The position numbers and the translations under genes are program-made. The notes under the pieces are model-generated. The model was not told the origin of the DNA. It saw only the letters and a list, made by a program, of their open reading frames with translations, and made no database searches. From assembly GCA_030432595.1 (NCBI GenBank), contig JAUIGU010000031.1, positions 1-46,911 on the forward strand: a stretch of 46,911 nucleotides of DNA. Reading direction: 5' to 3'. Of the stretch, positions 16,497 to 46,809 are shown one piece after another. This DNA is from Phycisphaerae bacterium (lineage in GTDB: Bacteria > Planctomycetota > Phycisphaerae > Phycisphaerales > Phycisphaeraceae). How positions within the stretch are numbered: position 1 is the stretch's first letter; the number at the start of each line of letters is the position of its first letter.

Positions 16497-16588
16497 GCCG
16501 GCTCTTTGGCAAGTGAAGCAAGGGCGTAAGGAGCTCTACGAAAACACGAGAGAAGAGAAGAAGCCCACGTTTACTGAACGCGGGCTTC
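16497..16588 (+). repeat. Dispersed 92-nt repeat, copy A, ending in a GAAGCCC/GGGCTTC hairpin
   Basis: This stretch matches the reverse complement of 46719-46809 with about 90 percent identity and one 1-nt indel (comparison by eye). It starts GCCGGCTCTTTGGCAAGTGA, continues through GCGTAAGGAGCTC and CACGAGAGAAGAGA, and ends in a hairpin of 7 bp (GAAGCCC/GGGCTTC), one mismatch and 4 bp (CGTT/AACG). The first part resembles the boxA antitermination signal of rRNA leaders (TGCTCTTTAACAA). It could be a leader-derived repeat or a small non-autonomous element. One frame reads VKQGRKELYENTREE in this copy and VKQGRKELHESTREE in the other, so a coding origin is not fully excluded. Confidence 0.7.
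16548..16588 (-). terminator. Hairpin terminator downstream of tRNA-Gly
   Basis: Read on the minus strand, the hairpin (stem 16560-16566 with 16582-16588 plus an inner 4-bp stem, loop 16572-16576) lies 27 nt after the 3' end of tRNA-Gly. It is followed by a pyrimidine tract TTCTCTTCTCTC. It is the hairpin part of the dispersed repeat and probably ends the tRNA transcript. Confidence 0.5.
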
Positions 16589-20820: not shown

Positions 20821-20865
20821 AAAGAAAGCCCACGGTGAGACACCGTGGGCTTCTTTGTTTTCACC
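20821..20865. terminator. Bidirectional rho-independent terminator between DLH gene and ahcY
   Basis: A perfect 12-bp stem AAGCCCACGGTG/CACCGTGGGCTT with loop AGA (20826-20852) is flanked by AAAGA on the left and TCTTTGTTTT on the right. It can terminate both the rightward hydrolase gene and the leftward ahcY gene, which converge here. Confidence 0.9.
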
Positions 20866-27622: not shown

Positions 27623-28924
27623 TCAAAGCAATCGCGCGAGGATCGTGTCCGCGACGAACCGGCCTTGCCGCGTGAGGCGGAGATGCGATTCGGTTTTCTC
27701 GAGCAGGCCCAGTGCGATGACTTCCTCGAGGTAAGCATTCCGGGCGTCGCCGGGTTCGAGTGCCGCGTCGATCCATGCGCGCTCGACGCCGGCGCTCGTG
27801 CGCAGGCCGAGCATGAGTTGTTCGCCGAAGCGCAGAGGTGGTGGCAGCGTTTCTTCATCCACGCGCGGCGGGTTCGGCGAGCCCGACACATAACGCGGGA
27901 GGTTGGGGGCGTTGCGCCAACGCTGCCCGTCGCGGTGGCTCGCGGCGGCGGGTCCGAGCCCGAGCCAGTTGTGGTTCTGCCAGTAGCCCAGGTTGTGCCG
28001 GCAACGCAGGTCGCGGGTGGGATCGCGGCGCGCCCAGTTCGACAGTTCGTACTGTTCGTAGCCGGCGGCGTCGAGGCGGGTCATGACGTGGTCGTACATC
28101 GCGCGTTCCGTGTCTTCGTCGACGCGCTGAACCTGGCCGACGCGCAGGCGGGCGGTCAGGGCGGTCTGCGGCTCGTAGGTCAGGCCGTAGATCGAGAGGT
28201 GTTCGGGCTGTAGTTCGAGCAGGCGTTCGAGGTCGCGGTTGAGCATGTCGAGGGTTTGGCCGGGGATCGCGAAGATCAGGTCCAGCGAGACGTTGTCGAG
28301 GCCCGCGTTGCGGCAGAGCTCGACGGCGCGGGGCACATTGTCCGGGTCGTGCCAGCGTTCCAGGGCTTTAAGTGAACCGCGGTCGAAGCTCTGGGCGCCG
28401 ATGGAGACTCGGTTGACGCCGCCGTCCACGAGCATGTCCATCAACGCCGGCGTCACGGTTTCGGGGTTGGCTTCGACGGTGAATTCGTCCACGTGTTGCA
28501 GCACGCGATGGCCGTGTAGATCGTGCAGCAGCGTTTTCCAGCACGAGGGTTTGAGGAACGTGGGCGTGCCCCCGCCGGCGAAGACCGTGGCCGGCGCGAG
28601 CGGTTCACCCTGATCCTGCAACGACACGACCCAACGCCGCAGTTCCGCGCACAGGGCCGCGGTGAATGCATCTTGAATGTCGGGTGCGTTTTCGGCGTTC
28701 CCGTTGGTTCGCGCCGGTTCCTTGGCGGGCACGACGCTGTAGAAATCGCAGTAGTGGCACTTGTGGAAGCAGAAGGGCAGGTGGAGATAGAGCCCTTGAA
28801 ACCCGCCGGGGGCGGACCGGGCTTGGGGATTCTGGGCTTCGGGGTTCGGGGCGTTCCCGGTATCTTGCTTAGGGTCCGTGGGTCCGATATGCTCGGGTGT
28901 TGTTCTGTTGATCGGGAGGTTCAT
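27623..28924 (-). CDS. hemW: Radical SAM protein HemW (heme chaperone, coproporphyrinogen oxidase-like)
   Basis: The 433-residue protein has the radical-SAM cluster motif with HemW spacing, HLPFCFHKCHYCDF (Cys52, Cys56, Cys59). It is followed by FAGGGTPTFL, EANPETVTPALMDML, VNRVSIGAQSFDRGSL, LDLIFAIPGQTLDM, YGLTYEPQTAL and a C-terminal HemN-like winged domain. HemW binds heme and inserts it into respiratory proteins; it is not the HemN enzyme. The N-terminus before the Cys motif is about 50 residues, unusually long, and rich in Pro, Asn and Gln (NAPNPEAQNPQARSAPGG), so either the extension is lineage-specific or the true start lies further in at a non-ATG codon. The ATG at 28924 overlaps the divergent FHA start by 2 nt. 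Confidence 0.9.
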   Translation of the reverse strand: MNLPINRTTPEHIGPTDPKQDTGNAPNPEAQNPQARSAPGGFQGLYLHLPFCFHKCHYCDFYSVVPAKEPARTNGNAENAPDIQDAFTAALCAELRRWVVSLQDQGEPLAPATVFAGGGTPTFLKPSCWKTLLHDLHGHRVLQHVDEFTVEANPETVTPALMDMLVDGGVNRVSIGAQSFDRGSLKALERWHDPDNVPRAVELCRNAGLDNVSLDLIFAIPGQTLDMLNRDLERLLELQPEHLSIYGLTYEPQTALTARLRVGQVQRVDEDTERAMYDHVMTRLDAAGYEQYELSNWARRDPTRDLRCRHNLGYWQNHNWLGLGPAAASHRDGQRWRNAPNLPRYVSGSPNPPRVDEETLPPPLRFGEQLMLGLRTSAGVERAWIDAALEPGDARNAYLEEVIALGLLEKTESHLRLTRQGRFVADTILARLL

Positions 28925-41162: not shown

Positions 41163-42578
41163 ATGCCGGACCTGTTCGAGTCCCGCCGCGAGACCTTCCG
41201 CCGCGCCGCCGAGCCGCTGGCGGCGCGGATGCGGCCGCGCACGCTCGGCGAGTTCGCCGGACAGCGGCATTTCCTCGGCGAAGGCAGGTTATTGCGACGC
41301 ATGCTCGAGGCGGATCGGCTCAGTTCGGTCCTGTTTTACGGCCCGCCGGGCACGGGCAAGACCACCCTCGCCGAACTCATCGCCCGGCAGACCTCGGCCC
41401 ACTTCGAGCGCGGCAACGCCGCCGCCGTCGGGGTCAAGGACGTCCGCCACGTGCTCGACGGCGCGAAACGCCGCCTCGAAGCCGATGGCCAGCGCACCAT
41501 CTTCTTCCTCGACGAGATCCACCGCTTCAACAAGGCCCAGCAGGACGTGCTGCTCGGCGACGTCGAGCGCGGCGTGATCACGCTGATCGGTGCAACGACC
41601 GAGAACCCGTACTTCGCGGTCAACAGCGCCCTGGTCAGCCGGTCGCAGGCCTTCAACTTCGAGCCGCTCGACGAGGCGGATATCGAGGCGGTGCTGCGGC
41701 GCGCGATCATCGACGAGGAGCGCGGTTTCGGCAAACTCGACCTGGCCGTGGACGACGACGCCATCACCCACTTGGCCGTGACCAGCGACGGCGACGCGCG
41801 GCGGGCGCTGACGGCGCTCGAGATCGCCGTGTTGTCGGAGAGGGATCGTGGTGCGGGTCTGGGGTCTGGGGCTTGGCCGGAATCGGTCCTTCGCCAAGAC
41901 GCGTCGGATTCTGATGCTGACCAAGACCCAAACCCCAAGCCCCAGACCCCACTGCACATCACCCTCGACATCGCCGAACAAAGCATCCAGCAGAAAGCCG
42001 TCGTCTACGACCGTGCCGGCGACGAGCACTACGACACGATCTCCGCGTTCATCAAGTCCGTGCGCGGGAGCGACCCCGACGCCGCGGTCTACTGGCTGGC
42101 CAAAATGCTCGTCGCCGGCGAGGACCCGATGTTCATCGCCCGCCGCATCGCGATCCTCGCCAGCGAAGACATCGGCAACGCCGACCCGCGCGGCATCATG
42201 GTCGCCAACGCCGCTTACGACATCACACACCGCATCGGTCTGCCCGAATGTCGGATCACGCTCGCGCAGGCGACGATCTATCTCGCCTCCGCTCCCAAGA
42301 GCAACGCCAGCTACGCCGCGGTCAACGCCGCCATGACCGACGTGAAACAGAACCGCACCCAACCAGTACCGAAATACCTGCGTTCCTCGAAGCCCCGCAA
42401 GGAGGGCCAGCAATACCAGTACGCCCACGACGGACAGGGCGGGTACGTTGATCAGGACTACCTCGGCGTCGACGTGAACTACTACCAGCCCACCGACCGC
42501 GGCTACGAGAAACGCATCGCCGAATACCTCGCCTGGGTCGAAGGCCAACGCGCGATGCCCGCGCGGGCGGGGAATTGA
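41163..42578 (+). CDS. rarA: Replication-associated recombination protein A (RarA/MgsA)
   Basis: The 471-residue AAA+ ATPase acts at stalled replication forks. It has the N-terminal [20 protein letters not shown], Walker [19 protein letters not shown] (about residues 56-73), Walker [18 protein letters not shown] (about 115-131), sensor 1 [13 protein letters not shown] and the arginine-finger region. The C-terminal MgsA part is [37 protein letters not shown] and [15 protein letters not shown]. Between [16 protein letters not shown] and ITLDIAEQ lies an extra segment of about 30 residues (233-262) encoded by a palindromic 90-nt insertion that keeps the frame. The start at 41163 matches the family; upstream in-frame ATG 41076 would add 29 basic residues without family support. 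Confidence 0.93.
41861..41950. repeat. 90-nt palindromic element inserted in frame inside rarA
   Basis: The two ends are perfect 16-nt inverted repeats, GGGGTCTGGGGCTTGG (41861-41876) and CCAAGCCCCAGACCCC (41935-41950), with 58 nt between. The total of 90 nt is a multiple of three and encodes about 30 low-complexity residues ([20 protein letters not shown], then [10 protein letters not shown]). RarA homologues have no such segment at this place. It looks like a small mobile palindrome tolerated in a surface loop, comparable in principle to Rickettsia palindromic elements. Confidence 0.75.
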
Positions 42579-45449: not shown

Positions 45450-45498
45450 CCCAGCCCTTGCAGGGCTGGGTTACCCACGTTCATAGAACGTGGGCTTC
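45450..45498. terminator. Two tandem perfect hairpins downstream of pilT
   Basis: CCCAGCCC-TTGCA-GGGCTGGG (45450-45470) is followed after three bases by CCCACGTTC-ATA-GAACGTGGG (45474-45494) and then CTTCC. Both stems are perfect (8 and 9 bp). They stand 30 nt after the pilT stop on the minus strand. No long T-run is present. The second hairpin shares CGTTCA...AACGTGGGCTTC with the hairpin of the dispersed repeat at 46719-46747, so this may be a repeat family as well as a transcript end. Confidence 0.65.
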
Positions 45499-46718: not shown

Positions 46719-46809
46719 GAAGCCCTCGTTCACCGAACGTGGGCTTCTCTCTTCTCTCGTGCTTTCGTGGAGCTCCTTACGCCCCTGCTTCACTTGTCAA
46801 AGAGCCGGC
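46719..46809 (-). repeat. Dispersed repeat, copy B (inverted relative to copy A)
   Basis: On the minus strand this reads GCCGGCTCTTTGACAAGTGA, then GCGTAAGGAGCTCCACGAAA, GCACGAGAGAAGAGA and a hairpin GAAGCCC...GGGCTTC (46719-46747, inner stem CGTTC/GAACG). It matches 16497-16588 at about nine of ten positions. It lies 67 nt upstream of the pilT start. Here the boxA-like part, GGCTCTTTGACAA, is closer to the rRNA leader signal than in copy A. Confidence 0.7.

Follow-up and report, generated by a model that had tools for sequence, protein, structure and literature searches.

A palindromic segment in the DNA-maintenance gene rarA of an uncultured Phycisphaeraceae bacterium (genome G000) is best explained, with a probability of about 0.7, as one copy of a lineage-specific, dispersed family of palindromic repeats with arms of 7-nt units, which would have spread by insertion with arms supplied separately and interiors acquired anew. 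An arm of the family is present at roughly fifty loci of the genome, in most cases paired with an inverted partner across a unique interior; the figure is an estimate drawn from at least 40 BLAST clusters and 56 looser clusters. The window is the whole stretch of DNA analyzed, 46,911 nt.

The rarA palindrome and its host gene

The rarA product contains the Pfam domains MgsA_C (over cut-off), AAA_assoc_2 and AAA, and is matched below cut-off by the NCBIfam RarA model and related models. Its closest solved relative is RarA 3PVS (E = 2.5e-108), which we take to be the E. coli protein, and the match is interrupted between residues 226 and 277. The features in the window are as follows.

41163–42578, plus strand: rarA (mgsA) coding sequence, 471 amino acids plus stop; 41163 is the chosen start, and in-frame starts also lie upstream
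41855–41876, plus strand: G-rich heptad arm, GGGTCTG GGGTCTG GGGCTTGG
41879–41926, no strand: element interior as parsed, 48 nt; comparison with 39 other interiors gave nothing beyond shuffles
41927–41951, plus strand: C-rich arm, the family arm in reverse complement
41856–41948, no strand: full extent of the parsed palindromic element, 93 nt, encoding about residues 232–262 of RarA
28819–28851, plus strand: candidate for a lone, degenerate heptad arm within the part of hemW that encodes the N-terminus; the gene is on the minus strand and the HemW model starts at residue 51

The 16-nt inverted repeats described here by an initial annotation (41861–41876 and 41935–41950) are exactly complementary, and one more outer pair extends them to perfect 17-nt arms (41860–41876 and 41935–41951). 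The rarA frame is open across the palindrome, with 41861 as a third codon base. The annotation also gave a length of 30 codons, which holds for the distance from one outer end of the 16-nt arm pair to the other (90 nt) but not as an insertion boundary, because heptads continue outward to about 41855. This pair is the sole perfect 16-nt inverted repeat in the window with a spacer of ≤110 nt, and such a repeat was present in 0/20 first-order Markov copies of the window. The fold of a 130-nt stretch of rarA reached −66.4 kcal/mol (z = −4.9), with 0/200 shuffles as good. G-rich text noticed earlier at hemW is real and consists, by eye, of units of about 7 nt (28819–28851); this heptad-like arm is located upstream of the conserved HemW domain, and inspection by eye of its surroundings revealed no partner C-arm.

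Compared with the shortest loop among relatives, the insert in rarA adds about 31–32 codons (manual count from the alignment). The rarA genes of relatives, against which the annotation had proposed to check its reading, were compared in 30 rows, of which two (L055 and L058) were dropped; they share no conserved segment, and the loop differs in length, being short in some and occupied by other repeats, judged by eye, in others. In the same-genus genome G001, the rarA contig stops at the loop, 5 nt beyond the match. RarA was modeled with AlphaFold from a 27-row alignment (mean pLDDT 84, pTM only 0.54). Residues 232–258 have pLDDT <50 and are flanked by a helix (212–230) and a strand (264–266), the only other stretches with pLDDT <50 being two of three residues each; in this model, the rarA copy sits in a loop predicted to be disordered. 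The insert is most likely tolerated by the RarA protein and not used.

Copies in the genome and its relatives

The arms of the family are built from the 7-nt units GGGGTCT, GGGGCTT and GGGGTTT in a preferred order from outside to inside, TCT tending to come first, followed by CTT and then TTT. BLAST of the 130-nt rarA stretch against G000 gave at least 131 matches in at least 40 clusters, a lower bound as the best 40 of 73 candidates were scored. The 16-nt arm at ≤1 mismatch matched 79 times, versus 11 for the reversed pattern, and 41 inverted pairs were parsed with looser arms (42 less one nested duplicate, L104, with L097 and L099 excluded as duplicate loci); the second copies that the annotation had expected are thus present genome-wide. 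At ≤2 mismatches, 44 fetched regions, which had been picked for their arm matches, and the window together held 56 clusters (39 two-armed, 8 with the G-arm only, 9 with the C-arm only), a few of which are probably chance matches in coding text. The G-arm preceded the C-arm in 39/39 two-armed clusters. Interior length ranged from 16 to 155 nt, which rules out a fixed element length. Many arms contain three or more G-tracts, and GAGCGCG-like text was seen by eye outside many of them. Two further kinds of palindrome were noted in this genome. In dnaE (L079), at about codons 640–690, an AGTCCGA-type heptad palindrome adjoins an arm of the GGGGTCT family, both in frame. GAAGCCC...GGGCTTC hairpins occur at four sites of the window (16497–16588, 46719–46809, 20829–20853 and 45474–45498), and two of the four adjoin a 62-nt, 94% inverted pair 30 kb apart.

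Genes were predicted with an in-house codon-score script rather than an established gene finder. By these predictions 10/41 pairs lie within genes, namely lipB, gcvP, nadE, lysS, mutS, rarA, an NAD-dependent epimerase gene, an N-carbamoylputrescine-amidase-like gene and two frames of one 5-kb contig, for which searches (NCBIfam for both, Pfam for one) gave no family match. Three further frames, dnaE, hisF and an unidentified one (L080), contain arms for which no partner was parsed. At hisG, glycyl-tRNA synthetase and ychF, other arms reach into the predicted N-terminus; the predicted starts of these genes may be too early. The copy overlapping ychF is a complete pair and was tallied as intergenic. 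The reading frame varies among copies. None of the six frames of the arm consensus contains a stop codon, so translation can pass through any copy that has an open interior and a length compatible with the frame, and selection would retain only the readable copies in genes. Stop-free arms are not a general rule: the arm of the sister-genus genome G010 has stops in three frames of one strand, and that of G036 has a stop in one frame per strand. In-gene pairs were shorter than intergenic pairs (p = 0.013), with a median of 90 nt in genes and 124 nt for all pairs.

For 12 in-gene cases, orthologues were aligned from as many as five related genomes; 10 of the cases had usable ones. The epimerase insert was absent from 3/3 relatives and the gcvP insert from 5/5, so that arms and interior together represent extra DNA; the genomes with empty sites belong to other genera and one congener, and none is a strain of the same species. 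In the remaining cases, loop lengths varied among comparators, some of which carried repeats of their own. Mobility of the element, which the annotation had suspected, is suggested by its dispersal together with the empty sites.

Intergenic pairs (31/41, many ≤60 nt from a gene end) lay in 20 tandem, 10 divergent and 1 convergent gap; control gaps taken from these regions numbered 66, 14 and 21, respectively. Convergent gaps were under-used (1/31 pairs versus 21/101 control gaps, p = 0.025) and divergent gaps over-used (10/31 versus 14/101, p = 0.031), in both cases with small numbers.

Across 61 genomes, arm matches numbered 79 in G000, 1 in G001 and 0–9 in the other 59, and the family appears from these counts to be lineage-specific. 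The repeats may be absent from the assembly of G001, as it consists of 260 contigs with the rarA contig ending at the loop. The sister genus has a family of the same plan with a different unit: G010 yielded 20 parsed pairs with 31-nt arms of ordered heptads (mean arm identity 0.84) and without G-runs, and among 17 loci examined, two elements, in mutS and purL, were in frame. Matches to the G010 element numbered 50 in G010 and at most 1 in each of seven other genomes. The unit of G036 is less specific, with 85 matches in G036, 20 in G019, 11 in G000, 7 in G009 and 0 in four others.

At the MutS loop that precedes Walker A, 4/5 comparators clearly carried another repeat and G001 was borderline. 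In a wider survey of 61 genomes, MutS loops were parsed from 55, the other 6 being unparsed by the search pattern. Fold z was below −3 in 8/55 loops, and 7-nt periodicity exceeded z = 3 in 10/55, G000 included, with differing units. Two loops had 8-nt periodicity, and 7- or 8-nt periodicity together marked 11 genomes; the 6-nt control was passed by three loops, two of them among the 11. All 11 belong to the window's own family (11/36 parsed genomes, versus 0/19 of other families). The units, read by eye, were GGGGTCT, CGGGTNT, GGGATTN, AGTGANG, GGGTCTN, AGTCCNG, AACTCGA and octads. The mutS loop of G022 (L354) is 249 nt, in frame and mostly made of repeated GGGGGCAA-type units.

Origin of arms and interiors

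Forty interiors of G000 were compared, one of <20 nt having been dropped, and the best score was 16, against shuffle maxima of 15–19; for 12 interiors of G010, the best was 11, against shuffle maxima with a mean of 9.7 and a highest value of 12. Capture of interiors from elsewhere in the genome was also considered and set aside: 12 of 24 prepared G000 interiors were searched in the genome, with the best 40 of 59 candidates scored, and gave self matches only. Within-element arms were no more alike than arms across elements, the observed similarity being reached by 1160/2000 permutations in G000 and 1319/2000 in G010; the test was limited to consensus-like arm pairs (≤3/16 mismatches in G000, ≤9/31 in G010), which narrows the variation because both arms of each pair had to resemble the consensus. 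Snap-back or paired homogenization of arms is unsupported by these permutations in either genome. Interiors are not wholly free, since a weak AAGGC/AGGCA motif, chosen post hoc, is shared at their edges (8/20 G010 elements; 7/82 G000 edges versus 0.7 expected), recurring in both genomes despite the differing arms; no excess of it was found in the overall fetched sequence of either. Miniature inverted-repeat transposable elements combine terminal inverted repeats with a target-site duplication; no target duplication of 2–5 nt above expectation was detected in the 20 G010 elements, and the ends of G000 elements are fuzzy.

Elements that moved as units would have interiors about as alike as their arms, which leaves either maintained arms with drifting interiors or separately laid arms with new interiors. 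We prefer the latter with modest confidence; conversion or selection keeping the arms alike while interiors drift could produce an identical picture. In the preferred reading, an element would arise by insertion without target duplication, its arms would be copied at each event from a common pool and its interior would be newly acquired, because interiors are unrelated while arms stay well conserved, and arms paired in one element resemble each other no more than arms of different elements. These genome comparisons revealed neither movement of an element nor a responsible enzyme.

Among the alternatives, a REPIN-like origin stands first and is possible, though doubtful: a Y1 (HUH) transposase, for example a RAYT, would mobilize the inverted pair in trans as a unit, with recognition by the enzyme conserving the arms while spacers drift. 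The elements do have two inverted, conserved ends and a spacer and could form a hairpin, and conserved inverted ends with a less conserved spacer and a hairpin are the geometry of REPINs according to the available text of PMC3116915. The lack of target duplication in G010 also fits, and Y1_Tnp matches number three in G000 and at least one in 49/61 genomes. They occur in 11/11 genomes with a 7-/8-nt periodic MutS loop versus 35/44 others (Fisher p = 0.18, not significant) and, within the family, in 11/11 versus 20/25 (p = 0.30), a tally slightly in favor of this origin and compatible with it but not significant. However, the regions of the three G000 Y1 matches carry other palindromes, and an arm scan of these regions at ≤3 mismatches gave one lone match without heptads (L111, position 2810); ends shared with RAYT flanks were not found there. 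The spacer of 16–155 nt, moreover, is not fixed, and its similarity between copies is not beyond shuffles. The palindromes of the Y1_Tnp (RAYT-like) gene regions, at 1920–2020 of L111 and at 1839–1926 and 2474–2550 of L112, are long and distinct from the heptad family; one palindrome arm in these regions ends in GTAG.

Local origin, in which 7-nt units expand by polymerase slippage and the inverted arm arises by template switching, with no dispersal, is unlikely. In its favor, units at the MutS loop differ between species, and heptanucleotide repeats are the most abundant class in most surveyed genomes, with slippage proposed (as cited in the available text of PMC4679880). The same units in a preferred order nevertheless recur throughout one genome, and snap-back copying predicts the best match within an element, which the arms do not show.

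Telomerase adds G-rich repeats. A similarly improbable mechanism would add the arms one at a time to DNA ends in much this manner, all from one shared template, a chromosome break being healed as G-arm, filler and C-arm; the template would change between species, so that the same loops hold different heptads. A reverse transcriptase link was pursued and dropped, no reverse transcriptase being common to all, with a trend that is nonetheless favorable: PF00078 matches were present in 6/8 chosen genomes with a repeat-bearing MutS loop versus 2/5 chosen without (Fisher p = 0.29), and none were found in G009 and G029 (66% complete). The eight proteins from six genomes are by eye of different kinds, with the look-alike pairs L361/L364 and L362/L367, and that of G000 scores highest with a general reverse transcriptase model of PADLOC. 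The resemblance of L361 (G010) and L364 (G019), also judged by eye, includes a hydrophobic N-terminal stretch.

A role as a selected RNA or DNA structure, be it a terminator, a G-quadruplex or a regulatory hairpin, with the rarA copy incidental, is very unlikely. That 31/41 pairs lie outside predicted genes, often close to a gene end, would suit it, and the available text of PMC4692102 gives CD spectroscopy evidence of quadruplexes for the G-rich heptamers of Xanthomonas and Nostoc; but few convergent and many divergent pairs (1/31 and 10/31) are ill suited to terminators, and the G010 arms, being without G-runs, rule out a quadruplex as the shared property. An ordinary variable RarA linker, palindromic by chance, accords with the variable loop length in relatives but is scarcely credible, given the Markov windows (0/20), and is refuted by the further copies of an arm that recurs genome-wide.

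Comparison with known repeat systems

In the literature covered, most accounts of in-frame palindromic repeats concern Rickettsia or REP dimers. The present family adds another lineage with a different build, in which arrays of short units serve as arms around unique interiors and, at one and the same loop of MutS and of some other proteins, the unit differs between species. Two questions are thereby made testable: what spreads heptamer repeats in bacteria, and whether selfish DNA has preferred entry points in essential proteins. STRR repeats, for their part, are cyanobacterial.

Nearest in build are the heptamers GGGAATC of Xanthomonas and GGGGA(C/T)T of Nostoc, of which the available text of PMC4692102 reports G-rich, paired repeats of usually four units, dispersed genome-wide, with inverted pairs in 70 and 75 cases in Xanthomonas, at least partial overlap with genes for 11% and 7%, and positions between divergent genes for 8% and 7%. 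G000 likewise has dispersed, G-rich 7-nt arrays, partly as inverted pairs, as in heptameric simple sequence repeats of the inverted-pair type. It differs in that 10/41 pairs lie inside predicted genes for named proteins, that 10/31 intergenic pairs are divergent, a placement rare for the Xanthomonas heptamers, that units differ between related species at one protein loop, and that the sister family has no G-runs; the available text on the heptamers deals neither with loops in frame nor with interiors.

Nearest in behavior are the Rickettsia palindromic elements (RPEs) and intragenic REP dimers. The likeness to RPEs proposed by the annotation serves as a working analogy: as the available text of PMC10969869 describes them, RPEs too are palindromic DNA in frame in many unrelated metabolic genes, and the G000 copies, read from sequence, are in-frame palindromes in many unrelated housekeeping genes. 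The element is nonetheless not an RPE, because its interiors are unconserved between copies; RPE families measure about 150 bp and code for a conserved peptide, whereas only the arms are common to copies in G000, where interiors are unrelated and arms are read in more than one frame.

REPs are, in the available text of PMC3733652, inverted doublets in species-specific families, whose intragenic dimers or groups encode 20–30 amino acids, many of them in DNA synthesis and repair genes of O. terrae and R. conorii; the recB genes of two Xanthomonas species carry different REPs at about one site. REPs lie mostly between unidirectional and convergent genes, unlike the G000 pairs (1/31 convergent, 10/31 divergent). 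Most surveyed REPs are tagged GTAG or CGTC and REPINs accompany RAYTs (available text of PMC3733652 and PMC3116915), whereas the G000 arms are heptads without a constant tag: of 82 outer arm ends, GTAG occurred near 5 and CGTC near 4, and each occurred near 1/82 inner ends. Literature searches, with most subscription papers outside their scope, turned up neither this family nor any description of heptad palindromes from Phycisphaerales. New with respect to these systems is a family of heptad-armed palindromes that lie in frame within housekeeping proteins and whose units, at loops shared by related species, vary from one species to the next.
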